From the IMG/VR virus record IMGVR_UViG_3300025174_000013, positions 1 through 64,000 of that record: 64,000 nt of DNA. The stretch is one strand, 5' to 3'. Under the pieces are notes generated by a model. It was not told the origin of the DNA, made no database searches, and was given only the letters and a program-made list of their open reading frames with translations. Both the position numbers and the translations under genes were made by a program. Below, one piece after another: positions 14,201-56,003 of this stretch (its first letter is position 1; the number at the start of each line of letters is the position of its first letter). The DNA comes from a virus.

Positions 14201-15408
14201 ATTTAAGATTTGATCAAACTCCAGATTCAGATGAAACTCAACCAAACGTTGAATTGGAAAATGAGATTGTAACTAAGGAGGAATATGAGGCAGAATTGGA
14301 AGGACAGCGACATCAAAATGAGCCTATAAATCAACCACCAATGGTATCAGAAGATCAATTTAATGCTGAATTAGACAAACAAAATCAAGATAATACCAAT
14401 GTTTTCGACAATACTACACCTGATGAACCACAAGGAAGGGTAGAAAAACTGTTTAATCCAGAAGAACCAAAAGAAGAAGGTTGGGAACCAGTATTAGGGG
14501 AAGACGAAGATAAAAAAGTATCTGAGGCTTTGACTTCTGATGGAATGAGGGTTCAGTCCGAACAAGTATTTGTAAATCCAGCAAAAAAAGTAATAGGAGC
14601 ACCAAGATTCAAAGATATGAGAAAAAAAAAAGATCAGTCGAAGGAAACAGGAACGCCAGAAGGAGCGAAGAAAGGATGGGATACAAGGGGAAGAGGAAGG
14701 AAGCCAGAAGAAAAAAAGGGAAAACCAACAAAGGTGAAGATAGATGATTCAAGACAAATTGAAAGAACAGATGCAATTAGGGATATTACGAACACATTTC
14801 CAGATAAATTTGATCATGAAACAGCAACCAAACAAGCGATCAAATCAGAAAAACTACAAGATAAACATCAAAAAAGAGTCAAAGAGGTTATTGACAGTTT
14901 GAAACAAGAATTTCCTAATGCAGATGTAACAGGAAGAGTGAAAACAACTTACAGTATGATAGAAAAATTAGCAAGAAGACCTAATTTGTATAAAGATGTA
15001 TCTGATTTAAATGATATATCAGCAGTTAGACTAGTATTAGAAAATCTAAATGATGTAAATAAAACAGTCAATCATATGAAAGAAAATTATAATATTGTAA
15101 ATGAAGAAAAATATTTAGAAAACTCAAAAGGAGGATATAGAAGCGTTCACTTATCAATTATTGATAAACAAGGATTAGTTTCTGAAGTTCAGGTAAGAAC
15201 GCCAAATCAGCAAAAATGGGCAGATTGGGCTCATGAATTTTATAAACCATTTGATAATGAAATGAAGGAATATTTAAAAGAAAATATGAACATTATAACA
15301 GATTATTCTTATAAGATGTCGGATTATTTCTATGATTTGGATAGTGGTAAAAAAGCAAATCCGCCAGAATGTCCACCAGAATTGGTTATAATAGGGTGCT
15401 TACAATGA
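11221..15408 (+). CDS. Portal protein with C-terminal RelA/SpoT synthetase domain (1395 aa)
   Basis: Residues 1 to about 425 look like a phage portal protein (dodecameric DNA entry ring of the head): an N-terminal FRRK stretch, a conserved core, a stem with LDVLDQRMVDMQ and a clip/wing region. Residues about 430-1190 are an acidic, Pro/Gln/Asp-rich, probably disordered linker. Residues about 1195-1365 match the RelA/SpoT nucleotide pyrophosphokinase domain: GRVKTTYSMIEK (R1239, K1241, S1245, K1249), D1265 in NDISAVR, GGYRSVH (Y1306, H1310), and EVQVRT (E1322, Q1324, R1326). These are the positions that bind GDP/ATP and Mg2+ in (p)ppGpp synthetases. No HD hydrolase, TGS or ACT domain is present. 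The open frame is continuous. Portal plus effector fusions recall MuF-type phage polymorphic toxins. Confidence 0.85.
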   Translation: MAFGFRRKASEAVPKVFQTFNSLLGSIVRKKNATVVGPSKQLVGEFPPVTFERLFEFYHHWDQIKRSMDTSHQKLIGAGIEIKSNNEYFNVFIEKWWKTTNAGKKFSEYFLSGLITGNAIMEIQYTPDGRIGNVEHIPMQTIFRVFRDQFANELKLVQVVDGVFKELDPEYFMHWMINNPDRQAFGKSEFFSVASPRPVTTKVDKFTGQPINPDRNLRPLLDAQAILQNAEVEIKEKMGKPRLIVSAPGMPQDQMKQVQLEMADPNSDQYIWIFDKPVDSKELQIQAQTRFDDYGDNVDSHIDIATGFASKVISHPGGFSYSSAQSPLDVLDQRMVDMQNDVAELIIDKLLKPLAESWGFKEFEEMEVEVSFTPNVKRLTMDDIKLLDPESVAPKEKREMYKKLNIPLDDQLYDEFQNELKQDKQDQKDTAMVQAQNNGFGGGEPTPIGDKGKPPFGGDDKGDTKPAPTTPPRPDIEKDRPSPTRTDKQEPSIFRKKKGESLTEDDVEKIVLKAVEATLKAQERISLPPKAGALSNSSSDLYVSQGLDTPGRPDVTDPELRKVYGLDKDEFEGELPPNAPQRRADSMNPPILDPQEEARRNMLNAKRGDSQGIDFTNAGGQGIPQVDASGNVVNQPPQVKLSDYVNELEGKVKGDHTKGGTGDQRINQDSTGDIKDPHDLADIQNEPAEPEEGQPQTTNIGPRERDNLSRGLTGGYEPENPDLKQLGSLKGDEPPYEKAEGFGKDEEDKKSGKLKKLENSQQLNEAEKINKKPDPLEEPHKDAKKPEDSDPSLPFEDPNPHLNEPQKGQAQLDDTPLQETPVNNISGINPSRPPKEGQSTNQATNLDDIKNDISEDGNAVEPAIGQSDQYRLKQAELTGNDDYSTLPTPGDPPIDQSGLNVRPDETNSLQNPTREDPIGTVPHDDGMIVKPEDVQQVQPTQKDIPVPNADPSQGQNIDQGVDPNEIDPDQLHVDPETGVNYTDLTDEQGNEVPDLRFDQTPDSDETQPNVELENEIVTKEEYEAELEGQRHQNEPINQPPMVSEDQFNAELDKQNQDNTNVFDNTTPDEPQGRVEKLFNPEEPKEEGWEPVLGEDEDKKVSEALTSDGMRVQSEQVFVNPAKKVIGAPRFKDMRKKKDQSKETGTPEGAKKGWDTRGRGRKPEEKKGKPTKVKIDDSRQIERTDAIRDITNTFPDKFDHETATKQAIKSEKLQDKHQKRVKEVIDSLKQEFPNADVTGRVKTTYSMIEKLARRPNLYKDVSDLNDISAVRLVLENLNDVNKTVNHMKENYNIVNEEKYLENSKGGYRSVHLSIIDKQGLVSEVQVRTPNQQKWADWAHEFYKPFDNEMKEYLKENMNIITDYSYKMSDYFYDLDSGKKANPPECPPELVIIGCLQ

Positions 15409-15854: not shown

Positions 15855-17972
15855 ATGCCTATCAAGATGGGGGATCAAACTTATGATAAATTTGAGGACG
15901 CCTCAAAATCAGTTCAACAAAGTAAGGGATTGCCAAAAGAAAGGGCAGACGCTTATGTAGCAACTATTGATAGAAAACAAAATGAGGCAGAAGTTCCAGA
16001 ACAAACTCAATCTTTAACTTCACCAAATGCCGATGATGTAAAAACAGAAGATCCACAAGATTTAACATCTCCACAAGGTTCTTCAAGAGAAGCAGAAAAT
16101 CCATTTGCTTCTGGACAAGGTGAATTATCGCCAGCAAATCCAGCACAGGATAAGGCAGAACCATCAGCAAATCCACAAGATCAAGCAGAACCAGCAAATG
16201 TAGGACATCAAGGAAGTTCAGAAGTTAGTCAAGATTCAGATATTAAGAAAACCAATGCATATGGAAAACTAAATGGTTCAAAACATATAGAAAATGAAGA
16301 TGAAAATAAAGACAAAAGGAGAGAAGATCATCAAAGTCTTGAATATAATGGTGAATCATATAATAAAGTAGAATCAATAGAATATGATGGAAAAATTTAC
16401 ATTCCAAGGGCTGGAGAAGCAGAAGACAATGATTTGGAGTATGATAACAAATTTTGGAAAGAAGCAGACGAAGATGTATTAGAATTAGATGATGATTATT
16501 ATGTTAAAGATGCTGAGGAACAAGGTGATATAGTTCCAAACCCACAATCATCAATGCCACAACCAACAACTGCAACAAGTACACCTCAATTAAATCCAAC
16601 TAGTGAAAGTATTATAATAAAAGAATCAAATGGTAAATATAAAAAGTATAACATTTTTGAAGTACACGAAGAAGAACTGCCAGTTCAAAAACCAGCAGAA
16701 ACAACAGAAATTCCAACTATTAATACTCCACAAGGAAATATAACTCAAAACGTAGACAAACCAAAAGAGGAACCAATAGAACAAAAGGAACCAGTTGAAG
16801 AAGTTATTGCTGTTGAAAAAATAATTATGAAAGAGAAAGGAATATTAAAATTTAAAACTGTTTATACTGAAGTTAAAAAAAAAGCTTCAGAAAATGATAT
16901 AGGTAATTGTGATTTTTGTAAAGGTACTGGTAAAGTAACCGTTGAACATTTAGGTTTAAAAGATTGTCCACGTTGTGGAGGAGACGGCAATGTAGATGGT
17001 GTGCAACCAAATGAATCTGGATTACAACAAACACCAACCCAAATGCCAAATCAACCACCAAATCAAACACAGCAACCGCAGGGTTCAAGTCCACCATTAA
17101 ATCAACAACCACAACAATCAACTCAGCCTCAAGAACCAAAGAAAGAGAACCCATTTGAGAAAAAGGCAGATAATCCATTCGAAAAGAAAAAGGATTCCGA
17201 AAACCCATTTGAAAAAAAAAGCTTAGAGTGCCTAGTATGTCCTAAATCAGTGAAACAGTTTGAAGGTTGGGTTCAAAGAAAAATAAATATATTAAAATTA
17301 AAGAGACCTGCACATGAAGGAGTTGGTCTTTTATTTGGAATACCAACTATTGAACAAAAAGGAAAGAAAATAAAAGGTGTATTAGCATATGCTGGAGTTT
17401 CTTTAAATAATCGTATTTATCTCCCTGAAGAATTAGCAAAAGGTGACGGTAAAACATTGCCACTTTTATTAAATCATAGCAATGTAGCGGGAGCAGAAGA
17501 AGAATTAGATAGATTAGACGAAAAAATGAGAGGTTCTCTTGAAAAAAATGAAGATTACCAAATAGGATGGGTTAAACTAAAATGGGTAGCCGAAGAATTA
17601 ACACTTTATTATGAAGGAGTAATTATAGACAAATTCTTCCAAAGGGAAGTAGATGATGCACAAATGGCGGTATCATTAGGAATTTGGTATGATTCTGATT
17701 CTCCACAAGTTTGTGATCAAGAATGTTATACACTTATTAGAGGAGCAGAATTTAGAGAAGTTTCATTAGTATATCACCCCGGTTTTCCAATAGCAACTAT
17801 TGAAGCAGTAGAAGCAAACTTAAAGAAAAGGGCGAAACAAACAATAATAGCAGAATCATTAGCTATACCATATTTAACTTCATCGGAAACAGGCAATATT
17901 ACATTTACTACAACCGATGTAATGGCAACTACAACTTCAACACCATTTAATTATAATTCAACAACTGCATAA
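15855..17972 (+). CDS. Prohead protease with long N-terminal extension (705 aa)
   Basis: Residues about 465-665 resemble the HK97-type prohead protease (peptidase U35): PLLLNHSN gives the catalytic His541, MAVSLGIW the nucleophile Ser607, and EFREVSLVYHPGFPIATI the usual downstream strand. It would cleave scaffold and capsid precursors inside the prohead. The ~460-residue N-terminal extension is unusual: a short conserved-looking head (GDQTYDKFEDA), Gln/Pro/Glu-rich linkers, three or four E-Y-x-G-x-x-Y-like repeats (about 172-220), a DnaJ-type zinc module with CxxCxGxG pairs (about 350-380), and three NPFEKK repeats just before the protease. The extension may be a fused scaffold removed at maturation. 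It sits between portal and capsid, the standard position. Confidence 0.8.
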   Translation: MPIKMGDQTYDKFEDASKSVQQSKGLPKERADAYVATIDRKQNEAEVPEQTQSLTSPNADDVKTEDPQDLTSPQGSSREAENPFASGQGELSPANPAQDKAEPSANPQDQAEPANVGHQGSSEVSQDSDIKKTNAYGKLNGSKHIENEDENKDKRREDHQSLEYNGESYNKVESIEYDGKIYIPRAGEAEDNDLEYDNKFWKEADEDVLELDDDYYVKDAEEQGDIVPNPQSSMPQPTTATSTPQLNPTSESIIIKESNGKYKKYNIFEVHEEELPVQKPAETTEIPTINTPQGNITQNVDKPKEEPIEQKEPVEEVIAVEKIIMKEKGILKFKTVYTEVKKKASENDIGNCDFCKGTGKVTVEHLGLKDCPRCGGDGNVDGVQPNESGLQQTPTQMPNQPPNQTQQPQGSSPPLNQQPQQSTQPQEPKKENPFEKKADNPFEKKKDSENPFEKKSLECLVCPKSVKQFEGWVQRKINILKLKRPAHEGVGLLFGIPTIEQKGKKIKGVLAYAGVSLNNRIYLPEELAKGDGKTLPLLLNHSNVAGAEEELDRLDEKMRGSLEKNEDYQIGWVKLKWVAEELTLYYEGVIIDKFFQREVDDAQMAVSLGIWYDSDSPQVCDQECYTLIRGAEFREVSLVYHPGFPIATIEAVEANLKKRAKQTIIAESLAIPYLTSSETGNITFTTTDVMATTTSTPFNYNSTTA

Positions 17973-18059: not shown

Positions 18060-19829
18060 ATGCCTACAAAGGTTAGAAAAGCAACAGAGGATGTTAGCGA
18101 TCAAATAGAGCCAACAGGAAAACTTCCAGCAAGCGGAGTACCAGATAATGGTGCAGACGGAACTGCTGGTGGTGCAAATTGTCCGGATGGTCAAATTTGG
18201 AACGCACATACTCGAAAATGTGAAAAATCTGACTTAGGTGACGCAAGTAAGCGTTCAATACCTGAACCAGTAGCAAAAGCTTCATCTGCAACTGGAGAGG
18301 CTGAAACAGTAGACGGGATCGATGTTGATCTTGTTGAAGGATCAGAACTTCCAGATGACAATGAGAAAGGTGTAATAACCGATTTGATTACAGGACAAGA
18401 CGGTAGCGAACCAGCAGTAGATCCAACTAAATTAACTGGATCAAATGCTGACAAAACTAGCGAGGCTCGAAGAAACGGAACTTATGCATATAAAATTGCA
18501 AAAGCCGAAGCTTTGAGAAAACTAGAACAAGCCGAAATGCGAGTACGTGCTAAAGAATTACTAGCTAAAGAAGCTGATTTGGATGCACGAATTAGACAAG
18601 CAAAAGAGTCTTCAAAACCAAGAGCATTAGTAAACACTCCACAAGGAGTCTATGCAAATGGTTCTAAGACCAGTGCTGTCGAGGCAGAAATATCAAAACC
18701 CTCTGCATGGTTCAGAGCGGTTCAAAGAGAAGAGAATGTAAGTCCAGCATTTATCTGGCACATTAACAAGGAGAAAATCTATGAGAATTACGGTAAGCAA
18801 TTCTACAAGAAATTTGATGCCAACGGCAATGAGTTAAAATTCCCAGTTCCAAAAACAGAAGTGGGTAAGACTTATGGCGGAGAAGCAGTAACAATTTCAG
18901 TAGCAGGACCAGCTGACGGAGACTTTATGAGAATCATGTCAGAACAAGTTCTAGTATTACCTAGTGGAAAAGTAGTAACTCCAATTCGTCAATTCACAGA
19001 GACAAAAGTTTTGCCTCCGGGAACACGAGAAGCATTCTTCTACGACTTTGGACCAGTAACTTTCAGCGATATCGTTGAAGGAGACACTGATCCGGCTGTA
19101 GCAGTTCCATTATCTTCACCAATCATAAGAAGTGCTGGAACAGAGACAGATCCAAGAGGTACAAGGATAGATATCGGTTATCAACAAACTGAGGAAAGTC
19201 CGATTGATATTATTGCTTCAGCAAACCGTTCATTTGCACTTGAGAGCATAAATGATGAATCAGTAGAAGTTTTGACTCGAGCTTACAACCTCGATGCAGG
19301 TTCTTCAGGTTCAGCAACTGTTCGAAAGGCAAAAGGTGGTGGTACAAAAGCTGGTAGATGGGTCGATGGTAATACAGGAACTCAAATAGTAGCTGATGCC
19401 GGTGGTTTAGGAGTTTTAACCTACAGAGGATTACTTTCTGCAAAGGGAGTAATTCAAGATGAAGGTTTAGACGATTCAAACTTAATCACATACACTAGCG
19501 GTAAAGGAATTCGTGACTTAACATTAGATCCAGATCTGGATTCATACATTGGATTCTCTAGACCTGCAATAATTACAGAAGCAACTGTAGAAAGAATCGC
19601 TGGAACAAATCTAGTGAGATCATCTGCAATAGCTCCAACAACTTTCGTTGGTGGAAAAAGATCTGTAATGTTTATTCCAAATGTAGCATTTGGTTTAGTT
19701 TCAGGAAGAGACTTAACAATGGAAGCTCAGCGAAGGAACGAGAGACAGTTGATTCATTTGACTGGAACTCAGAAAATCTCTGCAGTAGTTAAGAACGTAG
19801 AAGCAACAGTAAGATTGTCACACCTATAA
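18060..19829 (+). CDS. Major capsid protein, HK97-like (589 aa)
   Basis: Probable HK97-fold major capsid protein. Residues 1 to about 200 are charged, rich in Lys/Glu/Ala helices and probably act as a fused scaffold (delta-like) domain cleaved by the neighbouring protease. Residues about 205-589 form the shell domain, with phrases typical of phage capsid proteins (SAWFRAVQREE, TSGKGIRDLTLDPDL, GGKRSVMFIPNVAFG, NVEATVRLSHL at the end). Codon use is visibly different from its neighbours (more CGA, CGT, GTC, CTA), consistent with high expression. It has its own promoter and a T-rich terminator. The start at 18060 is chosen from TATA spacing; 18024 is an in-frame alternative adding 12 residues. 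Confidence 0.75.
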   Translation: MPTKVRKATEDVSDQIEPTGKLPASGVPDNGADGTAGGANCPDGQIWNAHTRKCEKSDLGDASKRSIPEPVAKASSATGEAETVDGIDVDLVEGSELPDDNEKGVITDLITGQDGSEPAVDPTKLTGSNADKTSEARRNGTYAYKIAKAEALRKLEQAEMRVRAKELLAKEADLDARIRQAKESSKPRALVNTPQGVYANGSKTSAVEAEISKPSAWFRAVQREENVSPAFIWHINKEKIYENYGKQFYKKFDANGNELKFPVPKTEVGKTYGGEAVTISVAGPADGDFMRIMSEQVLVLPSGKVVTPIRQFTETKVLPPGTREAFFYDFGPVTFSDIVEGDTDPAVAVPLSSPIIRSAGTETDPRGTRIDIGYQQTEESPIDIIASANRSFALESINDESVEVLTRAYNLDAGSSGSATVRKAKGGGTKAGRWVDGNTGTQIVADAGGLGVLTYRGLLSAKGVIQDEGLDDSNLITYTSGKGIRDLTLDPDLDSYIGFSRPAIITEATVERIAGTNLVRSSAIAPTTFVGGKRSVMFIPNVAFGLVSGRDLTMEAQRRNERQLIHLTGTQKISAVVKNVEATVRLSHL

Positions 19830-43499: not shown

Positions 43500-43780
43500 A
43501 AGAAGAACACGCATTTAGTGAATCATGGATTCATATAGATATTGACAAAGATTCAGAAGAATCAAAACATTGGGCTTCACTTTTTCCACAAACAATGTAT
43601 TGGGGCGACATAAAAAAAGGGAAGCGATTTACAATATCTTATTCATATAATACAAATGAAGAATCATTAGATAAAACCACAAAAATGCATTCTGTTATAA
43701 CAAAAACATTTCCAGTTAAAATAATAAAGATTAAGCGAAATAAACCAAGATTGGATGTTTATGTTGAGAGGGTGGAATAA
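43496..43780 (+). CDS. Hypothetical protein (94 aa)
   Basis: A beta-rich basic protein. The ATG at 43496 is chosen because it overlaps the previous stop (ATGA) and has GGTGAAA 8 nt upstream; an in-frame ATG at 43481 is the alternative. Shares one base with the next gene's ATG. Family not recognised. Confidence 0.55.
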   Translation: MKEEHAFSESWIHIDIDKDSEESKHWASLFPQTMYWGDIKKGKRFTISYSYNTNEESLDKTTKMHSVITKTFPVKIIKIKRNKPRLDVYVERVE

Positions 43781-44538
43781 TGGATTCATTAGAAGATAAA
43801 CGACTTGGTGAAGAAGTAATAAGAAGATTTAAAGAAGCACAGAAACAGTTAGTAGTTGGCGGTGAAAAACGTAGCAGAACAGTTCATGCATCACATATTA
43901 CGGGAGCATGTATGAGAAAGAGCTGGTATGAATTTAGGGAAAAGCCAGAGCCACTTAGTGCAGAATCTATTGCCAACTTCTATGTTGGACAGCTTTTACA
44001 TCAATTAACACCATTGGCAAAGAAAAATGAGATTAAATTTAGTGCTAATATAAGAACTATGAAGCCGATAGATGTAAAGGATATTAATGATTATAATCTA
44101 TTTGATTGTGTTACAGGCACATCTGATGATTTAATCGAATGGGAAGGGGATTTGGTAATAGCAGACAAGAAAACATGGTCATCATTGAAGATAAATTACA
44201 AAAATGGAGGTACTTATGAAAAGAAAGAATTGACAGAGCCAGACGAAAGTTATGTTAATCAGCTTAACATCTATAAGTTATTGAATTATATTTGTGATGG
44301 TGTACAGGCAAAGAAAGGCGTTCTTCTTTATTTAGACAAAGCCACTTCATTTAAAGATCCTTTACCTTTTGTGTTTGACTTGAAACCAGTAGATGAAATT
44401 AGATCATGGGTAATAGATAGGTTAGATAAGATAAAACAATTAGTGGAGCCAGATAGGGTTATCACTAAATATTGTAGATATTGTCCATTCAGAACAATCT
44501 GTAACCCTCCAAAGGAGTTGATACCACCATGGTCTTAG
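43780..44538 (+). CDS. Cas4/RecB-like Fe-S nuclease (252 aa)
   Basis: PD-(D/E)XK exonuclease of the Cas4-like type. An N-terminal Cys (GACMRKSW, about residue 44) and three C-terminal cysteines in CRYCPFRTIC (about 232-241) match the 4Fe-4S cluster; GTSDDLIEW with VIADKKTW gives the catalytic Asp and Lys (about 112-132), and QLNIYKLL is the QxxxY motif. Not CRISPR-associated here: no array or Cas1/2 is visible. Likely role in DNA end processing with RadA. Confidence 0.75.
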   Translation: MDSLEDKRLGEEVIRRFKEAQKQLVVGGEKRSRTVHASHITGACMRKSWYEFREKPEPLSAESIANFYVGQLLHQLTPLAKKNEIKFSANIRTMKPIDVKDINDYNLFDCVTGTSDDLIEWEGDLVIADKKTWSSLKINYKNGGTYEKKELTEPDESYVNQLNIYKLLNYICDGVQAKKGVLLYLDKATSFKDPLPFVFDLKPVDEIRSWVIDRLDKIKQLVEPDRVITKYCRYCPFRTICNPPKELIPPWS

Positions 44539-44948
44539 GATTTGGTAAAAAAGATATATTTTATGCTGGAGGCAAATTAAGACCGGGCGAAACTAGGATT
44601 CAAAAGAATTTTAGACTTGGTTGGAAACCAAAAGGATTTCTTATTGATGAAAACACCGCAATGTCTGATGAAGATATTGAATTGTTTCCACAATATAAAA
44701 TAATGAATAGTAAAAAGAAGTTCAAACGTGGAACAGATGATAGGTTGCTTATTCAATGGGTAAAAGAAAGCGGATGGGTTTTAGTTACCAAAGACATTAG
44801 AATGGCTATTAGAGCACTTATGGAAGGTGCTCCAGTATTGATGATTAATGAGGATTATAAGATTATTTCATTAATGGAAACTAAGGTACATCCAATAAAA
44901 GAATACAAGGAGTTGTTTGATTATTTTGTCAATCGATATGAGTTTTAA
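44529..44948 (+). CDS. PIN-like domain protein (139 aa)
   Basis: GTDDRLLIQWVKESGWVLVT followed by KDIRMAIRAL and PVLMI fits the PIN-like Mut7-C/DUF5615 group (Asp...T-x-D-x-D-like acidic site), which are ribonuclease-like folds. An N-terminal basic region precedes it. Overlaps the nuclease gene by 10 nt. Moderate confidence in fold; activity unknown. Confidence 0.55.
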   Translation: MVLGFGKKDIFYAGGKLRPGETRIQKNFRLGWKPKGFLIDENTAMSDEDIELFPQYKIMNSKKKFKRGTDDRLLIQWVKESGWVLVTKDIRMAIRALMEGAPVLMINEDYKIISLMETKVHPIKEYKELFDYFVNRYEF

Positions 44949-45528: not shown

Positions 45529-46000
45529 AAAAAGTAAATCAGACGAATGGTGGACTCCAGACTGGTTTATTCCATCAGTAGAAAAAGAATACAGAATGAA
45601 GTTTGAAGTGGATGTGGCATGTACTCATAGAAACTGTAAATGTATGACTGGAATTACAAATGCTTTAAAAGATGATTGGAACATCAAATCTGTACATGGT
45701 AAAAGAAAATGGGGAGATGTTTGGTGTAATCCTCCTAATTCTAAGTTACAACTTTTCCTTCCAAGGGCGTACCAACAATGGACTAAATATGGTATGAGAA
45801 TATTTATGATTGTGCCTGCTAATGTAATGTCTTCTAAAGGATTTTGGAATGGTGTAGAAATTCCACGAAGGAAGGGAGAACGAATAACATATGAACCAGT
45901 GTTTAAAAGAATTGCATTCCTAGATAACGGTAAAAAACCAAAGTTTTCAGCCAGAAATGCTTATATTGTAATAATTTGGGGAAAGAAATCAAGATTTTAG
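45497..46000 (+). CDS. Dam-like DNA N6-adenine methyltransferase (167 aa)
   Basis: DEWWTPDWFIPSVEKEY at the N-terminus and GDVWCNPPNSKLQLFLPRA (motif IV, NPPNS in place of NPPY) match phage Dam (N-6 adenine) methyltransferases. VPANVMSSKGFWNGVE is the next conserved strand. Length fits. Probably protects viral DNA from host restriction. Confidence 0.8.
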   Translation: MSQLHQRKRSKKSKSDEWWTPDWFIPSVEKEYRMKFEVDVACTHRNCKCMTGITNALKDDWNIKSVHGKRKWGDVWCNPPNSKLQLFLPRAYQQWTKYGMRIFMIVPANVMSSKGFWNGVEIPRRKGERITYEPVFKRIAFLDNGKKPKFSARNAYIVIIWGKKSRF

Positions 46001-46035: not shown

Positions 46036-47658
46036 ATGCCTGACCTTTCATCTAGAGATATCAGCAATGATATGTCCTTAGCGACAGCAAGTGAAAGTGA
46101 AATTTGGAACAGTTTAAGTCCAGAAACAAGAGCTATAATTCTAGGTCGGGATATAGCAAATGAGGCAAACATTTCTAATAACACAAAAAATGTATACCAA
46201 GGAGATTTGAAAAGTAACTCATACGAAACTATGAGTTATTATTCACTTCCTCCCTCAGCACAATTCTATGTTTCTAATAGATTGCATGAAATGGGATACT
46301 TTAGTGATTCTTATGGAGCAAATGTATATGAAGTAGAGGGTGACAGTAGATACAAATGTAAAGATTGTGAAGAAACATTTACTGCAGAAGAAGATTTTAG
46401 AGTTCACAGAAAAGTGAATCATGACAATGAAGAAAGCGAAACAGAAAGTCGAGAGGCTTATTCTCGATCACTTTATATTGATCCAGACTTGACAAAAGAT
46501 AATTTAAAGTGGGCAAGACAAATATTAAGAGGAGAATCTGCAAGACAAACATTTCCACAAAATGATGCACCAACAGTAACAGAACCAAAACTTCCAAAAG
46601 GAAAGAAAGGATATGATGATAATCCAAATCATTACTTTTATGATAATAAATTATTTAAGAGAGGAACAAGAACACCATATGAACAGGAAGGAAGACCAGC
46701 TTCAGAAGCAAGTCTTTTAATTGAGTTAGAATCAGAAATTCTAGACAAATATGGATGGGAATCTACCAAGGATGTAGAAAAAGATCCTGCTAACAGAGAA
46801 ATATATACATCAGAAGTGGCACAAAAAGTTACTGCAAATGAATTACATCCAAGAACATTAAGAATTTTAGATCATGTTAATAAACCACTTTTATTTAAGA
46901 CATTGTTAAGACTTGGTGCAGTAGAAACACAGCCAGAAGAATGGAAAGAACAAGTAATAGATGAAAAACCAATACATCAAGATTATGATCCAGAACATCC
47001 ACATGAACACAATGACTTTGATACATATTTTAGTGACAAAGTAGCAGAAGAAGATATTTCAGAAGAAGAACACACAGGCAAACACACAGAGATGGCAGAT
47101 GCAATACAAAGAGAGAATCCAGATTATTCAAGGGATAGAGCAATGAAAATAGCAAATGCACAAATTAACAAATATGGATTAGAATCACATTCAAACAAGA
47201 AAGTGCCAGATTTACTTAAGGAGGTAGATATAAGTGTAATGGAAGTGGAAGCAGAAGAATATAATGCTGATGAGAAAGAAGATGTAAAAGCAACCGAAGC
47301 AAGAATATTATCATCTTATGTAGGAAGTAAAACTAAAGGCGGGGAATCACTCGCGGATATTATGGAAGGTGCATTAGATGTACCCGTAGAAAAAGAAACT
47401 GTTAATGAAGTAATTTATGACAGAAAACTTGATGGTTATCATGAGGATAAAATAGCAAGAGAACTATTTATTAATCACGGATTAGAATATGAAGACGCTA
47501 TAAGACAAATAAGAAGCGTTGAAGTTTCAGATGACGATAGAGTAGCAAAGACTTTATTTGGAAAAAGGTTATCTGAATGTAATAAAGCCGAGGTTGGTGA
47601 AATGAGACTGTACGCTGGTGAAGCCAAAAAGAATACTACGGGTGTAAGATATGATTGA
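46036..47658 (+). CDS. Modular acidic protein with zinc finger, cluster member A (540 aa)
   Basis: Low-complexity and acidic. Two helical W/Y-x-x-L units at the start (EIWNSLSPETRAIILG; SYYSLPPSAQFYV), then a C2H2-like finger YKCKDCEETFTAEEDFRVHR (about 100-125), then acidic linkers, a helical region with HTEMADAIQRENPDYSRD, and a C-terminal region. The linker phrases ANEAN, EAYSRS, EEYNADE, VKATEAR and GEAKK are variants of the E-[SA]-[YK]-A-x-E phrase that recurs in the next two genes. Overlaps the next gene by 8 nt. Function unknown. Confidence 0.7.
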   Translation: MPDLSSRDISNDMSLATASESEIWNSLSPETRAIILGRDIANEANISNNTKNVYQGDLKSNSYETMSYYSLPPSAQFYVSNRLHEMGYFSDSYGANVYEVEGDSRYKCKDCEETFTAEEDFRVHRKVNHDNEESETESREAYSRSLYIDPDLTKDNLKWARQILRGESARQTFPQNDAPTVTEPKLPKGKKGYDDNPNHYFYDNKLFKRGTRTPYEQEGRPASEASLLIELESEILDKYGWESTKDVEKDPANREIYTSEVAQKVTANELHPRTLRILDHVNKPLLFKTLLRLGAVETQPEEWKEQVIDEKPIHQDYDPEHPHEHNDFDTYFSDKVAEEDISEEEHTGKHTEMADAIQRENPDYSRDRAMKIANAQINKYGLESHSNKKVPDLLKEVDISVMEVEAEEYNADEKEDVKATEARILSSYVGSKTKGGESLADIMEGALDVPVEKETVNEVIYDRKLDGYHEDKIARELFINHGLEYEDAIRQIRSVEVSDDDRVAKTLFGKRLSECNKAEVGEMRLYAGEAKKNTTGVRYD

Positions 47659-50600
47659 TTGTGGAGTTTGTGGAAAAGGGTTTAATACTAACGAAGAATA
47701 TAAAAATCATGTAGAACAGGCTCATGAAGCAATGAATGATACTTATTCAGAAGCATTTTGTAAAGCAAATGAAGAAACCACAGCATGGGATTTACAAGTT
47801 TGTCGTAAATGTGGAAATTCAAGAGTTCTTCAAGAGGATACAGGTTATTGTGCCCAATGTTCAAAGAAATTAGAATCAAGGGAAGTCAACTGGAGAGATA
47901 TAGGAGATAAAAAAGTTATAGATAAGGGATCACATTATGAAACTGAAGATGGTACATTAGTTGATTGGTCATCATATGATGCAACAGACGCACAAAAATA
48001 CTTAAGTAAAAAAGTTAATGAATCAAAAGCAAATGAAGATGATATGGATGATTTGCAATATAAACAACAGTTTGGACATGATTGGCGTGATGATAAAGCA
48101 AAATCAAAGAAAAAAGAAAAAGAAGGCGATGAAGGAGGGGCAAGAGGATTATCAAGTCAAGAACAACCATTAAAAAAAGTAGATTCATTATCAGAATCAT
48201 GGGGAGTATTAGAAAAAGAAAAGAAAGCACAATTATTTGAATCATTAGGAATTAATCAAGGTAGTGCATATACATTAGCAGATTTAGATTGGTTTAACTT
48301 ATCTCCACAACTTAAAGCCGATGCTTCAGAAGCATATGCAAAAGAAGAAGATGAGTTAGTAATAGATAATGATGAAGATTTGTTTGCTTTACATAAAGGA
48401 CTTATGGATAAACCAATAAAAGATGATAAGGAAAAAGAGGTTAATGAAGCCTATGCAGATATTTATAACATAGAGAAAAATCATTTATCGCCTGATTATA
48501 AAAAAAAAGCTATAGAATGTAGTAGATGTAACGAGAAGTTTTATAATAGTAAAGAAAGAGACGTTCATTTTAATGAATTCCATGCAACTGAACAAGAATA
48601 TAATTTACCTGAAGAATGTCCTTTTTGTAAGGAATTAATTAAGGAGCCAGAAACATTGGATTATCACATGCAACAAGAGCACGGAGCCCATGTACCAAGT
48701 CAATATACTCAAACAGGAATTCAAGGAGCAATGGCAGATACAGATTTTGATTCTTTAGGTTCTGATTTTTATTCAGAAGCATTTGATAGTGATTGGGCTT
48801 GTCCTAGATGTGGTAATAAAAAAGTAACTATAAAGAAAGATGAAAATGGAAATCCTATTGGTAGAGCATGTCCTAAATGTGGTTTGGGAAATGAAGTAAA
48901 AGCAACTGAATCAAAGTGGAGAGTTAATACAATTACACATGGTAAGGTTAACGTTAATTTGGGTAAAGATGCAAATGAAGAAGATGCATTAAACGCAGTT
49001 AAAAGAATGTATTTTGATGATGGATATATAGATGATAGTGATATTTTATCTGCAAACAAACTTAGTGATGAAGCAATTAATTTTGGTAAACATCAAACAT
49101 GTTCGATATGTGGACAAGATTTTGAATTGAGTGGTGTAAGTGCTGATAGTGGATGGGGTTCACATGACACAGAAGGAAACAGAATAGTGCGTAATGACAG
49201 ATTAAATCAAATTGCACATTATGACTGCGTAGAAGCAAGTGGTGAAGATATGAGTCCTTTAGGTGAATCTTATGCAAATGAAGAACATACACATAATTGG
49301 GAACAAGTAGGAGATGCTGATGGAGACAGAACATTTGAATGTACTGGATGTCCAGCGAAATTATGGGCTCATCCCGGTCAAAGTAAAGAAGAAGGAGATA
49401 TTTATTATGGATATCTTGGTCAAGAATCAAAAACAAATGAAGCAAATTGGACAGATTTCGGACATGTAAGTGATCCTAATTTTAGAACTAATTGTACTGA
49501 TGGAGAACCACACGTTCCAAAAGAAGACAAACAAAATGATATATGTATTAAATGTGGTAAAAATATACGAGAAACAGGAGAAGGTTCAGGTTATTGGTTT
49601 ACAGATGAAGATAACAGAAATTGGAATAGAACATATAATGAATCAAAAGCAACAGAATGGAGTACTGGAATATCAAGTAAAGATCCAACTGCAATAACAC
49701 AATTAGAAGCAAAATTAGCAAGACTTGAAGAAGAAAAAACAGAGATAAAAGCAAGACCAATAGTACCACGAGATTGGAGTTTTTCGCCAGAAGATAGTAG
49801 GGGATTTGAATTAACAAATATAAATGCAAACATTAGAAGTGTAAAACAAAGAATAGAAGATTTAAAAAACAGAGCAGGAGAAGCAAAAATTCCAAGCGGT
49901 GATCTTTATCAACATGGGCAAAAAGTTGGAACTATTACAGATTATAATCCAAAAAAACATGAAGGGTATGTAACACTTGATGGTATTGGTATAAAAGAAT
50001 TTGGAGCAATGACATCAGATTATGAAGTAAGAGTTAATGGTGAAAGAATTCCTAACAAATGGGATGGTAAACACGATTATAATTTAGATTTGTTTGGAGA
50101 AGCATATAACGATGATATGGTATTACGAGCACTTGATACTCCAGACGCAAATAATGAAGGTTTACCAATACATGCACAAGGAGTATATTGGAGATGTGAT
50201 TTGTGTGATTATAAAACATATTTCATGGGAACTTTTGATAATGCAGATCCAATAAAACCACATTTAAAAGAAGAACATGGTATAGGTGAATCATATGCAA
50301 AAGAAGACGGAGGTTATGCAAATTTTGGTGATAAACCAAAAGAAGAATCATGGTCAGTATTAACAGTAGGATCAGATTTATGGTATTTTAATTCAGAACA
50401 AGAAGCAAGAGATTATGTCAAAAACTTTCCAAAAGGAACATATCAAATTAACCGTCCACGAGAAGGAAGAGAATCATATGCGAAAGAAATAAGCGGACAG
50501 TTTACGAGACAATGCCCTCATTGTGAAAAATTAATTAATGTTGATAAATTAAATGATCATATCAAAAAAGAACATAATGAAATAACTGAGGGTTTAGAAG

Positions 50601-50824
50601 ATCCAGAATATAGAGTAAAATTATTTAAAGATATTGAGAAAAAACAAAAAGAAGATAAAGAAGAATCAAACGAAGACGATGATCATCCAAAAGGATGGGA
50701 TAAAAGAAAGCCTGATATAGGTGGATATGATCCAGAATTAGATGTTGATGATCCTCCAAGAAGACGGGATAAAAGACAACCTGAAATTGGAGGTTATGAT
50801 CCAGAATTAGATTATGATGGTTGA
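47651..50824 (+). CDS. Multi-zinc-finger modular protein, cluster member B (1057 aa)
   Basis: A mosaic of small modules. Zinc sites include CGVCGKGF...H...H at the start, CRKCGN...CAQC (about 52-76), C2H2 fingers near 290-312 and 330-355, CPRCGNK...CPKCGLG (about 383-410), a CSICGQDF site, CTGCPAKLW, CIKCGK, CDLCDYKT...H and CPHCEKL...H near the end. Between them recur linkers such as SEAYAKEE, GESYANEE, NESKANE, RESYAKE, and one W-F-x-L helical unit (LDWFNLSPQLKAD). It ends with two copies of a DIGGYDPELD-type phrase. A DNA- or RNA-binding virion or scaffold role is conceivable; I recognise no known family for the whole. Confidence 0.75.
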   Translation: MIDCGVCGKGFNTNEEYKNHVEQAHEAMNDTYSEAFCKANEETTAWDLQVCRKCGNSRVLQEDTGYCAQCSKKLESREVNWRDIGDKKVIDKGSHYETEDGTLVDWSSYDATDAQKYLSKKVNESKANEDDMDDLQYKQQFGHDWRDDKAKSKKKEKEGDEGGARGLSSQEQPLKKVDSLSESWGVLEKEKKAQLFESLGINQGSAYTLADLDWFNLSPQLKADASEAYAKEEDELVIDNDEDLFALHKGLMDKPIKDDKEKEVNEAYADIYNIEKNHLSPDYKKKAIECSRCNEKFYNSKERDVHFNEFHATEQEYNLPEECPFCKELIKEPETLDYHMQQEHGAHVPSQYTQTGIQGAMADTDFDSLGSDFYSEAFDSDWACPRCGNKKVTIKKDENGNPIGRACPKCGLGNEVKATESKWRVNTITHGKVNVNLGKDANEEDALNAVKRMYFDDGYIDDSDILSANKLSDEAINFGKHQTCSICGQDFELSGVSADSGWGSHDTEGNRIVRNDRLNQIAHYDCVEASGEDMSPLGESYANEEHTHNWEQVGDADGDRTFECTGCPAKLWAHPGQSKEEGDIYYGYLGQESKTNEANWTDFGHVSDPNFRTNCTDGEPHVPKEDKQNDICIKCGKNIRETGEGSGYWFTDEDNRNWNRTYNESKATEWSTGISSKDPTAITQLEAKLARLEEEKTEIKARPIVPRDWSFSPEDSRGFELTNINANIRSVKQRIEDLKNRAGEAKIPSGDLYQHGQKVGTITDYNPKKHEGYVTLDGIGIKEFGAMTSDYEVRVNGERIPNKWDGKHDYNLDLFGEAYNDDMVLRALDTPDANNEGLPIHAQGVYWRCDLCDYKTYFMGTFDNADPIKPHLKEEHGIGESYAKEDGGYANFGDKPKEESWSVLTVGSDLWYFNSEQEARDYVKNFPKGTYQINRPREGRESYAKEISGQFTRQCPHCEKLINVDKLNDHIKKEHNEITEGLEDPEYRVKLFKDIEKKQKEDKEESNEDDDHPKGWDKRKPDIGGYDPELDVDDPPRRRDKRQPEIGGYDPELDYDG

Positions 50825-50827
50825 TTA

Positions 50828-53800
50828 ATGATGAAAGAATATGAATCAGACGAAGGAAGATGGGATTATACGGAAGGCGACAAGCCTGAATCACAAACAA
50901 CTGATTATGATCCAGAAGAATTAGAAAGAGCAAGAATAAGAATGAAAGCAGAAAAGAAAAGAATAGAAGATCCAGAAATAGGTGTATTCGATTGGGAACT
51001 TGAAAAATCTGGAGAACCATTTCAAAAGGGACAAGAAATGGATATAAGCCACAAAAAATGTCCACATTGTAATTTTGAAACTTCATTTAAACCTGATGAC
51101 CTTTGGCAAGAAACAGATGCTGATACTGAATTAGATACACATATTAGAAATAAACATGGAATTAATGAGTCAACATCAACAGAAAGTGTAACAAGTTGGT
51201 GGGGTAGTGCAAGTCCAAAGAACTTAGAGTTCAGAAGCAAGGCATTAGATAAAATTAATGCAAATACAGATTTACAAGATAAAGAGTTTTGGGAATTACC
51301 TGAAGATATACAAGATAATATTTATGAACTTTATACAAGTGGATATAGTAATGAAGCAACTGAGGAACGAATTAATACAGATACATACCACTATGATTAT
51401 AGTGATTATTGGAAAAAAGGAGATTCTTATGTAAGAGCAGGATTAGCAATGGGATCTGGACTTTCAACAGATACAGCTAATAAAGAATGGGATGAACTTA
51501 CGAAAGAAGAACAAATAAAGATTTTAGAATCGGGTTATGTAACGTCTTATGAATCAGTGGCAGAAGAAGATGGACAATGGGTAGACTTTGATGATAATCA
51601 CAGAGTAAGACAACCAACAATTAGTGATATTCCAGATATAGCAAAAAGCATGTTTCAAGGTTATAGTCAAAAATTAAAGAAAAAATTTGGTGATGAAGAT
51701 ATAGACGGTCATACTCCAGAGGAAATGATAAAAAGAGAACATGAATTAATGGGAGAACAACCAAAGGAAGAAGAAAAGAAAATACATCAACAACTTGAGA
51801 AAGAATTTGGTGATGAAGAATCAACTGTAAGTGTATCAGGCCCTCCCGCGGGAACACAACCCCCAGCAAATATATGGGATGATTTAGATAAAGCAGAAGA
51901 AGACTTTGTAGAACAAGAACATCCACGGGAACAAACAGGAAAATTTACAACTAAAGGTGGAGGAAGTTCAAAAGCAGGACAACCAAAAGAAAAAAGCAAG
52001 AAAGAATTTACACTTAAAGATTATGAAAGAAATGAAGGTAGAAATGCTCATACATTAAATGCATTAAACTTGGTAAAAAAATATGGTACGCCAGAAGAAA
52101 TTAAAGAAATGGAAGAAATAAAAGATAGACATGATAAAAGTGAACACGGTATCAATCATGATGATTATAAAAGAAGATATGATATATCACAAAAATATTA
52201 TGATAAATTAGTTGAAGATGAAACAGGGGAAAAACCATTTTGGGCTAAAGATGAACCAAAAACAGAAAAACCAAAAGAAGAAAAGAGGTTTACACTTAAA
52301 CAATATGAAAGAAACGAAGATGTAAATAACCATGGTAAAAATGCACAGTTATTGGTAAAACAATATGGTACTCCAGAAGAACTTGAAGAAATAAATGCTA
52401 TATTAAAAAGAAATCCAAATGGATATAGTGGTGTTGATGGACATGCTGATTATCAAAGAAGACATGAAATATCAAACAAATATTATGATAAGTTAGTGGA
52501 AGATGAAACTAAATCTAATGAATCAAATGCAAATGAATTTGAGCCAGAAAGACAAGGAAGAAAAGTTAAGATTAACAAGGGAACTTATGCGGGACAAACA
52601 GGGAGAGTAGGAGCAATACCATTAATAGATGATAGTTCATTTTTTGTAAGAGTAGATGGAGTTCACAATGAATATGAAGATGGGATACAAGTAAATGTAA
52701 ACGATGTCACATTCTTGGGGGGAGAAGTAAAATATGATTTGTATGAAAAAGTTGAAGAGGTCAAAATACCAAATCAAGATATAGAACTTCATAAATATGT
52801 ATGGGAATCAATGTACGGATATGGTAGTGCAACAGGAAGAATGTCACCAGTTGAAGATTGGAACCAAGGAGGAAGTTTTGAACATCCATACAGTGAAATA
52901 TTTCGTGAATTTAGAGGATTAAAATGGAGTGAATTACCCAAAGATATACAAGATGCATGGAAAGCAGAAAGGGATTATGCACCATATGATAGTGAATCAC
53001 ATGTAAAATCTGATATAAAAGGTTGGTTAGATAAAACTTTTCCTACAGAATATGAAGAACCACAAAAAGGACTTGATTCAGAAACAAAAGCCGATGAAGA
53101 TTGGTATGATACAGATGATTCAAATTACAAGCCAGAAGTATTAAAATATAAAATAGTAACGTCATTAGGAAATGACTGGGGACTTCAAACTAATAGTAAA
53201 GCAGAAGCACAAAGAGCAGTTGATGAATGGAATAATGATTATGAGAAATCAGTTAGTGGATCATTACCATATACATTAAAAATAGTTGATAATGAATCAG
53301 TAGATGATCCAAAAGATATTAAACTTTTAGATAGATTATTGGATAATGAATTAGAAGAGGAAAAAGAAGGTGAAGATGAAGAAGAAGATATTGCAATATT
53401 ACTACAATTATTAGCCCCTGATGAAAAAGCCAATGAAGTAGATCCAAATTGTCCAGAATGTGGAGGAGATGGATATATAGACGTACCAAGTAGATGGTCT
53501 TCTGATGGTTTAAGACAAGAACCATGTCCTAGATGTGGGGGAGAAGATGATTATCATGATACATATGATGAATCATACAAAAAAAAAGCTACTGAATTAG
53601 ATTCTATTTATAAACAATTCACAGGTCAAATAAATGCACCAACAGGTAAAGGTATAATGGATAGTGTGAGGGGATATAGTGAACCTGAAGCAGATGGACA
53701 AGATTTGACTGGTACTACAGCAAATGAGGAAATAATAGAAAAAACTCCACCTAAAATTAATTATCAATATTATAAACAATATCCATTTGGTAGAATACAA

Positions 53801-54595
53801 AAAGGATTTTTTGGGGAAGTAGATAGAAAATGGTGGGAAACTGCATCATATGAAGAGAAAGCAAAAGAATTAAGTGATATAGGATTTGGAATGGGTGCTG
53901 ATATAGGCGAGAAAGGAAATCCATTAGCAAGAAGAAGTTGGGACGACCTACCAAATGAAGCAAGACAACAATGGGGTTATTTTGGTAATGAAGTGGAGCT
54001 GTCAACAATGTACCAAGCAAGAGATTGGTGGGACAAAAAATATCCAGATAGACTATGGAAGGATATGCATATAGACGGAAGACAAAGAGCAATCATGGCA
54101 TTTTTAAGAGATCCAGACACTGAGTTAAAATCAGAGGAAGGAGGTCAAGGTAGTGGAAGAAAACCATATGCAAGTAAAGACCCAGCAAGAAAAGACAGAG
54201 CACATGTAGGTTGGAAGAATCAAGGAATAGATAAATATACAGATTTGGCAATGAAAGATTATTTAACGGGAAAAAAATCAACTCCAGAAGAATATGAATA
54301 TGCTGGATATCATGCCTCAAAAGAAGTAGAGGATCAAAAATGTGAAGGTTGTGGTAGAGAAGAAGATTATTTAAATGATGATAATTTATGCGAAGATTGC
54401 GAAAGAGAAGCAGGGATAGATCGCGAAGAATCAAAACGTGATGCTTATGAAGGTGGAAAAGGAAGTGGTAAAAAAGGACATCAACAATGGATGAGATCAT
54501 TGGAAGAAGATCCATCTTATGGTGAATGTAAAAATTGTAAAGTTATTACCGAAAAAGTTAATAATAAATGCCAAATGTGTGGTAGAAAGTACTAA
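50828..54595 (+). CDS. Modular protein with tandem repeats and zinc ribbons, cluster member C (1255 aa)
   Basis: Continues the style of the previous gene. Four W-x-x-L helical units: FWELPEDIQDNIYELY, EWDELTKEEQIKIL, KWSELPKDIQDAW and SWDDLPNEARQQW. A phage-head-like phrase HPREQTGKFTTKGGG (about 360-375) precedes a tandem ~80-residue repeat starting FTLKDYERNEG and FTLKQYERNED. A KOW/SH3-like domain follows (KVKINKGTYAGQTGRVGAI, about 575-630). Late zinc sites: CPECGGDGY...CPRCGGED (DnaJ-like), CEGCGRE...CEDC, and CKNCK...CQMCGR at the end. Two GGxGSGxK phrases occur near the C-terminus. Function unknown; the phrases suggest a virion-associated protein. Confidence 0.75.
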   Translation: MMKEYESDEGRWDYTEGDKPESQTTDYDPEELERARIRMKAEKKRIEDPEIGVFDWELEKSGEPFQKGQEMDISHKKCPHCNFETSFKPDDLWQETDADTELDTHIRNKHGINESTSTESVTSWWGSASPKNLEFRSKALDKINANTDLQDKEFWELPEDIQDNIYELYTSGYSNEATEERINTDTYHYDYSDYWKKGDSYVRAGLAMGSGLSTDTANKEWDELTKEEQIKILESGYVTSYESVAEEDGQWVDFDDNHRVRQPTISDIPDIAKSMFQGYSQKLKKKFGDEDIDGHTPEEMIKREHELMGEQPKEEEKKIHQQLEKEFGDEESTVSVSGPPAGTQPPANIWDDLDKAEEDFVEQEHPREQTGKFTTKGGGSSKAGQPKEKSKKEFTLKDYERNEGRNAHTLNALNLVKKYGTPEEIKEMEEIKDRHDKSEHGINHDDYKRRYDISQKYYDKLVEDETGEKPFWAKDEPKTEKPKEEKRFTLKQYERNEDVNNHGKNAQLLVKQYGTPEELEEINAILKRNPNGYSGVDGHADYQRRHEISNKYYDKLVEDETKSNESNANEFEPERQGRKVKINKGTYAGQTGRVGAIPLIDDSSFFVRVDGVHNEYEDGIQVNVNDVTFLGGEVKYDLYEKVEEVKIPNQDIELHKYVWESMYGYGSATGRMSPVEDWNQGGSFEHPYSEIFREFRGLKWSELPKDIQDAWKAERDYAPYDSESHVKSDIKGWLDKTFPTEYEEPQKGLDSETKADEDWYDTDDSNYKPEVLKYKIVTSLGNDWGLQTNSKAEAQRAVDEWNNDYEKSVSGSLPYTLKIVDNESVDDPKDIKLLDRLLDNELEEEKEGEDEEEDIAILLQLLAPDEKANEVDPNCPECGGDGYIDVPSRWSSDGLRQEPCPRCGGEDDYHDTYDESYKKKATELDSIYKQFTGQINAPTGKGIMDSVRGYSEPEADGQDLTGTTANEEIIEKTPPKINYQYYKQYPFGRIQKGFFGEVDRKWWETASYEEKAKELSDIGFGMGADIGEKGNPLARRSWDDLPNEARQQWGYFGNEVELSTMYQARDWWDKKYPDRLWKDMHIDGRQRAIMAFLRDPDTELKSEEGGQGSGRKPYASKDPARKDRAHVGWKNQGIDKYTDLAMKDYLTGKKSTPEEYEYAGYHASKEVEDQKCEGCGREEDYLNDDNLCEDCEREAGIDREESKRDAYEGGKGSGKKGHQQWMRSLEEDPSYGECKNCKVITEKVNNKCQMCGRKY
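52003..52515 (+). repeat. Tandem duplicated ~80-residue module in cluster member C
   Basis: First copy about 52003-52230, second about 52285-52515. Both begin FTLK-x-YERNE, contain KYGTPEE or QYGTPEE, and end with YYDKLVEDET. DNA similarity is still visible, indicating a fairly recent internal duplication. Confidence 0.75.
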
Positions 54596-55172: not shown

Positions 55173-56003
55173 ATGCAAAAACTGGCATCACTATTAGCGA
55201 TTTTGTTAATCGTGGGATTATTAGGTACAAATTTCGCATATGGGGATTATACAGAATACATGAAAATAAGAATAGAATCTGATAAACCAAATGTTTGTGT
55301 ATTTGAAGCCGAAAACCCACAAGTAGATTTTGCAAAAAGAGGACTTTATAAAAAAACCGTAAAATGGATAAGTGAATGGTCTAAACAACTGGAAAAAGAA
55401 GCCAATGGAGGTAATTGGGATTTTACATATGAATTCATACATAATTCTACTCACTTTGATAAAAAACCAACAGATTTCCCTCAATGTAATGTATTGATAG
55501 TATTTGATGCCGAGAATTTAAATCCAATAGAAAGTGATTTAGGTATGGCACAAGGATACACATCTTTTGATTATAGAAGTTCAACTCATAAATTTTCATT
55601 TATAGATATTTTCACATTTGCACCAACAAATGAAATAAATTTAGGTCAATTAGATTTTACCAATATGACAAAAAATGCAGATGGCTCATATGAAGTAAAA
55701 TTAGGTAAAGAAATGTTTACATCAGAACCAATTTCTGATGAAGCAATTAGAATAGTTATTCAACATGAATTTGCTCATGCAATGGGATTAGGTCATTGGA
55801 GTGATACAACCAAAAATGATTTTAAATCGATCATGGTTCCACAATTTGATGTACGAGCAAAAGGATTAGAAAATATAAAAATAACACTTGATGATATCAA
55901 GGCATTAATAGAACTTTATGGTGAAGATGGATTTAGTAAATATTATCAAGTTCTAATTCCAGATTTAGCATATGGATGGGAAAAATCAGTAATGAAAAAT
56001 TAG
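55173..56003 (+). CDS. Secreted matrixin-like zinc metalloprotease (276 aa)
   Basis: A clear Sec signal peptide (MQKLASLLAILLIVGLLG..., about 1-24, Ala/Gly-Tyr-Gly end) is followed by an M10/matrixin-like domain: HEFAHAMGLGHW (about 198-209) is the HExxHxxGxxH zinc site, and SIMVPQFD supplies the Met-turn. No propeptide cysteine switch is evident. The protein would be exported and could cut S-layer or surface proteins during exit or entry. Such proteases are found in archaea including Nitrososphaerota; capture from a host is inferred. A TATA-like TAATATATG precedes the ATG by about 25-28 nt. Confidence 0.85.
   Translation: MQKLASLLAILLIVGLLGTNFAYGDYTEYMKIRIESDKPNVCVFEAENPQVDFAKRGLYKKTVKWISEWSKQLEKEANGGNWDFTYEFIHNSTHFDKKPTDFPQCNVLIVFDAENLNPIESDLGMAQGYTSFDYRSSTHKFSFIDIFTFAPTNEINLGQLDFTNMTKNADGSYEVKLGKEMFTSEPISDEAIRIVIQHEFAHAMGLGHWSDTTKNDFKSIMVPQFDVRAKGLENIKITLDDIKALIELYGEDGFSKYYQVLIPDLAYGWEKSVMKN

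Follow-up and report, generated by a model that had tools for sequence, protein, structure and literature searches.

Modules exchanged at a recurrent A-x-E linker in a three-gene cluster of a probable archaeal virus, and their possible processing by its prohead protease

Cleavage of a polyprotein into many products is a hallmark of RNA viruses; for tailed DNA viruses, to our knowledge, the established roles of the head protease are limited to removing propeptides and digesting the scaffold. The internal proteins of phage T4 are fast-changing small head proteins in which only a short leader is common to the different effectors, and in IPI–III and Alt the capsid targeting sequence is removed by the protease gp21 (PMC12373910, PMC9958956). 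The ejection and inner-body proteins of the giant phages SPN3US and phiKZ are processed by gp21-related proteases (gp245 and gp175): according to the sections of the accounts cited here, gp245 of SPN3US cleaves after A-X-E (PMC10052503), the phiKZ protease after S/A/G-X-E and that of 201phi2-1 after S/A/G/T-X-E (PMC5694885). In these accounts the SPN3US and phiKZ proteases trim their own C-termini as well (PMC5694885), and some propeptides are cut several times (PMC10052503, PMC5694885). The third system, Nvie-Pro1 of Nitrososphaera viennensis, is a 23.7 kb provirus with a protease described as chymotrypsin-like (PMC6563490).

The cluster described here occupies positions 46036-54595 of a stretch of 64,000 nucleotides (the window), which comprises bases 1-64000 of a 75,144-base IMG/VR record. 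It consists of three adjacent genes, overlapping or abutting in the window's ORF list, and their products carry zinc motifs, a small helical unit with a W-x-x-L motif (W unit) and a recurrent linker with the consensus E-S-[K/Y]-A-x-E. The likeness to the T4 internal proteins is clearest in a sister lineage, where L068, L071, L093 and L095 have a common leader of about 45 residues ending in PI[S/A]RE, followed by unrelated cassettes with ESKANE, ESKASE or ESYATE linkers; the window itself has no evident leader and its candidate sites are internal. The T4 proteins lose one short N-terminal peptide, whereas the cluster proteins are 540–1255 aa long and contain many internal candidate cut sites separating many domains. 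No sequence similarity to the T4 proteins was detected; by analogy the cluster proteins may work like them, injection included, and they are not filed here as members of that group.

With the SPN3US and phiKZ proteins the common features are a protease that is gp21-like in its predicted fold and a motif, here a candidate cleavage site, of the A-X-E or S/A/G-X-E type. In those phages, as far as the cited sections describe them, the cuts remove N-terminal propeptides of single proteins and not strings of exchangeable domains, the hosts are bacteria, and zinc or W modules are not mentioned. Nvie-Pro1 has a homologous capsid protein (30% identity), a Rel/Spo-domain gene near the portal and a protease–capsid fusion, but no such gene cluster is annotated in it and its capsid protein reads RARQE, not A-x-E, at the column discussed below. 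What is new is that long proteins string together many exchangeable domains. A search of the open-licence literature found no account of such a cluster, and the statement of the sequence-only reading that no family of this design is described is fair for the design, although in function the T4 internal proteins and the giant-phage ejection proteins come close.

The window includes genes for a portal, a protease, an HK97-like capsid protein, tail proteins, MCM, RadA and nucleases. Of 50,697 phage records, only Nvie-Pro1 contained a relative of the capsid protein. In capsid-protein searches the records G001 and G003 had a capsid protein identical to that of the window, while that of G002 was 93% identical and that of G005, a record circular as judged from its overlapping contig ends, about 54–57% (54% by tblastn); further scans returned only the same five virus records, a Guaymas MAG contig (L116) and the Nitrososphaera provirus. 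Sister viruses were tied to the window virus via the terminase (53%). As one of them carries an amoC gene beside an equivalent cluster, the host is probably an ammonia-oxidising archaeon, or a related one. In L071 an amoC-like gene (13534-14097; Pfam AmoC, E 6e-14) immediately precedes the cassette gene.

The window was 99.9% identical to G003 over 2098-43506 and 100% identical to G002 from 44628 to its end. The record switches between two co-occurring strains within 43506-44628, through either natural recombination or chimeric assembly. This switch near 43.5 kb leaves the cluster untouched, as the independent record G002 contains all of it. G001 and G003, otherwise near-identical, differed over 17.8 kb at only 3 sites, which fall inside one 45-base stretch beside a module boundary of protein B (L039, about 4997-5041). 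Contigs tend to end inside hypervariable loci, and our impression was that several contigs of the sister and G005 lineages stop inside the cluster.

The ORFs lie at 45976/46036-47658, 47651-50824 and 50828-54595, where the sequence-only reading had placed them, and its description of a three-gene mosaic of zinc fingers, W units and linkers was borne out. Protein A (46036..47658, + strand), 540 aa from an ATG at 46036 that is backed by G003, is acidic and has one W unit (46087..46311, +), one C2H2 finger and almost no linkers; it was 83.5% identical to its G003 counterpart from end to end, with no shuffling. Protein B (47651..50824, +; 1057 aa) contains at least seven zinc motifs, one W unit and 10 linkers at 10% false discovery rate, and protein C (50828..54595, +; 1255 aa) four zinc motifs, two to four W units and seven linkers, together with a weak KOW-like module and the motifs GGxGSGRK and HPRxxxGxFTxKGG. 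Both are shuffled relative to their G003 versions. Strong acidity (pI 4.1–4.8) is common to the three proteins, altogether 2852 aa, and to their G005 counterparts. Pfam and PHROGs gave no meaningful assignment for the cluster proteins, and the PHROG search no match to known internal head proteins. Protein C found no match by tblastn in the 50,697 phage records, and a G005 cluster protein and two modules found nothing useful there. When the window's cluster proteins were compared by BLAST against themselves, no match appeared at 1e-3, and repeated copying of a single domain was therefore rejected as the full explanation.

The zinc motifs, 12 by pattern in the three proteins, look like C2H2 and zinc-ribbon units. 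All of them fell under the Pfam cut-offs (best zf-C2H2 score 18.7 bits against the required 25.2), with the metal-ligand patterns present. The W unit was aligned from 18 copies, and an AlphaFold2 model of the 56-residue copy at 48185..48352 (+) consisted of four short helices, the last of which continues into the linker, and had a mean pLDDT of 90. The unit had no Pfam match, and Foldseek found no PDB match at E below 4, a negative result that does not establish a new fold. A W-unit HMM trained without window sequences detected copies in the window with E-values of 6e-14, 4e-10, 6e-4 (51182..51367, +, protein C) and 0.012 (51392..51571, +, protein C), and two marginal ones; the two best have close orthologues in the training set. 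Elsewhere in the virus nothing scored below E 1. The earlier count of about seven W units is thus plausible, but the HMM supports only about four to six.

The linker is strongly enriched in the cluster. Strict copies of E-[S/A]-x-A-x-E numbered eight in the 2852 aa, with 0.26 expected from local shuffles, and a linker profile at 10% false discovery detected 18 copies in the window proteins, 19 in G003 and 17 in G005, as compared with 10 matches in the other 17650 aa of the window's ORFs. These shuffles and counts rule out chance or composition as the origin of the linker. The sequence-only reading had named a chance-level frequency, once composition was considered, as the outcome that would speak against it, and the enrichment stood; its count of 25–30 linkers, however, came down to 18 unless very loose variants are included. 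A motif-blind search over all spaced triplets, run separately in the window, G003 and G005, placed C..CG, ANE, E..A.E, KA.E and ES.A (dots for any residue) near the top in the window and similar patterns in the other two. The consensus is mostly followed by D or E, and only one of 54 linkers overlapped a zinc motif (6.3 expected).

Among the linkers on the + strand, ESKANE (GAATCAAAAGCAAATGAA; 48020..48037) lies at a block boundary with G003, and EAYAKE (48329..48346) within the last helix of a W unit. The homology with G003 stops at EVKATE (48893..48910; ATE/S versus AEE/S in G003, the slash marking the break) and at ETKADE (53081..53098; ADE/D versus ANE/E), and starts at an ESYAKE (50471..50488; AKE/I versus ANE/I) and at or just before ESNANE (52520..52537). 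Further copies are ESYANE (49265..49282), ESKATE (49640..49657), another ESYAKE after a C2H2 finger (50288..50305) and ESVAEE (51551..51568). At the equivalent locus G005 has five consecutive genes whose products combine zinc motifs and W units with linkers of the kind GESLAKED, YESKAIED and FESKARED. This locus has little alignable sequence in common with the window, yet the same motif was recovered from it independently, and the linker is conserved in all three lineages.

Comparison of the cluster DNA of the window and G003 showed blocks of 75–94% identity with unrelated stretches between them, and the 25 internal boundaries of this alignment were used as a test of the seams. A-x-E was present within six residues of the boundary at 13 of the 25 on the G003 side (background 0.12, p-value 2e-6) and at nine on the window side (background 0.11, p-value 7e-4), with about three expected; the motif was chosen after a test with the strict linker profile, and is also the published motif of a related protease. 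The strict profile gave a weaker signal, 6 and 7 of the 25 against 1.9 expected (p-values 0.009 and 0.002). At eight boundaries [A/S]-x-E occurred at the same offset in both genomes, mostly with x changed, as compared with 9.4% inside homologous blocks (p-value 0.0015), and about 8 to 10 of the seams had neither A-x-E nor S-x-E nearby.

Two seams in the sister lineage were exact. Over 6 kb L068 and L093 have 99.4% identity, which breaks off at L068 base 12252, where the E codon of NPISRE ends; for L071 and L109 the split comes at L071 base 14508, again the final base of an E codon, here that of KPISRE (KPIARE in L109). Two such splits would be rare by chance, since [A/S]-x-E ends at only about 2% of residues (60 in the 2852 aa); both may go back to one ancestral seam. 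Modules have thus been exchanged at the motif, as the sequence-only reading had proposed when it suggested recombination seams and a module-level comparison across related viruses, and the exchange is seen directly in the relatives.

The gene for the prohead protease domain lies at 17265..17858 (+). No Pfam family was found for the domain at E 10 in the window or G005, and plain Foldseek gave no significant match for the AlphaFold2 model (pLDDT 64). The best structural match of the model was T4 gp21 (5JBL; Z 11.9, rmsd 2.9, 132 residues), followed by herpesvirus proteases and with 4CX8 (Z 6.4) as the runner-up, so that the model best matches a gp21-like protease of assemblin fold. H71 and S137 (17475-17477, +, and 17673-17675), candidate catalytic residues, are invariant in three divergent homologues, and the C-terminal region carries TIEAVE or TIEANE, with A-V-E at 17805-17813 (+) in the window. 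G005 has the protease and capsid protein fused in one 916-aa ORF (L043 1554-4304), as in Nvie-Pro1; in the window the two are separate.

In the capsid protein A-V-E stands before the conserved HK97-like part (18675..18683, +). The same alignment column holds A-x-E in three lineages with x changed each time: SAVE/AEISKPSAW in the window, KADE/KEVTGPARW in G005 and SATE/AEVSKPSAW in L116, the slash standing after the E. The column is a predicted maturation site. The propeptide has also a second conserved site, A[K/R]ES, in the same three. Taken by itself, A-x-E is no more frequent than expected in the portal and capsid proteins. The A/S alternation at the seams of the cluster resembles that in the giant-phage protease motifs.

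The three genes probably encode modular internal head proteins, processed by the prohead protease and with its cleavage sites as the points of exchange. The precursors would enter the prohead during assembly, and [E-S-K/Y]-A-x-E would be the recognition site of the virus's own gp21-like protease. Cleavage after the E would free zinc-binding units, W units and other small domains, which would stay in the head and probably be delivered to the archaeal host, or partly be disposable core. A module bounded by cut sites could be swapped without breaking its neighbours, and since the modules begin and end there, the cut sites would double as recombination seams and the gene set would vary quickly from strain to strain. 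We infer the cleavage, the presence of the products in the virion and their injection. The wider reading of a polyprotein, with prohead-protease sites doubling as seams and a combinatorial, fast-evolving cargo packaged in the head for delivery to the host, is tentative, and we would give it a little under an even chance. Both protease sites and recombination seams had been offered by the sequence-only reading, and both gained support, apparently at the same places: the seams are seen directly, while the capsid column, the gp21-like fold and the specificity of related proteases converge on the protease sites indirectly. Against this reading stand the position of the cluster, which is not beside the head genes, and protein A, nearly linker-free and unshuffled. 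The purely structural match of the protease, made with a middling model, the RARQE column of Nvie-Pro1, the missing A-x-E excess in the portal and capsid proteins and the seams that lack A-x-E or S-x-E also count against it.

The linkers could instead be seams at the DNA level only, their short common sequence (GAATCAnnnGCAnnnGAA) giving exchange by microhomology while the proteins stay whole and intracellular. The linker codons are indeed uniform, with an identity of 0.85–0.87 against the 0.64–0.69 expected from the same residues elsewhere in the genes of three lineages, and TCA and GCA are over-used; moreover, L056 and the near-identical G005 differ at 9 sites in 16.6 kb, four of which rewrite one linker (ESKASE to ESYSTE). 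Such uniformity fits homogenisation or exchange via the linker DNA, but since the favoured codons are also the commonest in the genome, it leaves the choice between DNA and protein undecided. Selection on the protein is indicated by what changes between viruses: x and the S/A and K/Y alternatives vary, but A/S and E persist. The recurrence of A-x-E in the capsid protein, which shows no exchange of modules, argues in the same direction. A purely DNA-level role is considered unlikely.

Still less probable is a disposable scaffold whose protease-cut pieces leave the head, like T4 gp22, gp67 and gp68, with no role in the host. It would suit the strong acidity of the window and G005 proteins and the many candidate cut sites within each of B and C, and the T4 core proteins are cut to small peptides (PMC9958956), but folded zinc and W domains that strains exchange, against a background of constant capsid proteins, would be superfluous in a scaffold, and the capsid protein already has a long propeptide. 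Intracellular zinc-finger regulators that arose by duplication, with the linker as a neutral flexible spacer copied along with the modules, are very improbable: a neutral spacer would not keep the same residues in lineages with cluster proteins that are otherwise hardly alignable any more, nor match the predicted maturation column of the capsid protein, even though the zinc motifs resemble C2H2 and zinc-ribbon units and the genes follow those for replication and nucleases, away from the head genes.

If the linkers are cut as in the preferred reading of head proteins processed by the prohead protease, a few genes would furnish a mixture of small zinc-binding and helical proteins for delivery, and the safe swapping of domains would be explained by the cut site. 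Unannotated genes of archaeal viruses would then become candidate host-directed proteins with predicted ends, and E-S-K/Y-A-x-E a signature for head cargo in other viruses of ammonia-oxidising archaea. The enzyme could alternatively be a secreted protease of the matrixin type. A matrixin-like metalloprotease (Peptidase_M10) with a signal-like N-terminus is encoded at 55173-56003, directly downstream of the cluster, and is kept in G003.

Some further genes of the window and its relatives were recorded. The portal protein (11221-15408) carries an extension that is long and acidic and, at its C-terminus, a RelA/SpoT-like domain (Pfam E 1.3e-18), portal and domain being connected through GTPEGAKKGWDTRGR; the domain is possibly a head-delivered enzyme, and in Nvie-Pro1 a separate Rel/Spo gene stands at the matching position. 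In L116 the ORF ahead of the capsid gene (1-1686) bears IIATED and a NHEPAGTSKGGQFAKK stretch and encodes a nucleotidyltransferase resembling the archaeal CCA-adding enzyme (Pfam E 1e-26), which may be a further head cargo. A 2306-aa protein at 564-7484 contains dozens of F-[TL]-[IV]-D-[AS]-x-L repeats and is probably a tail fibre or adhesin.
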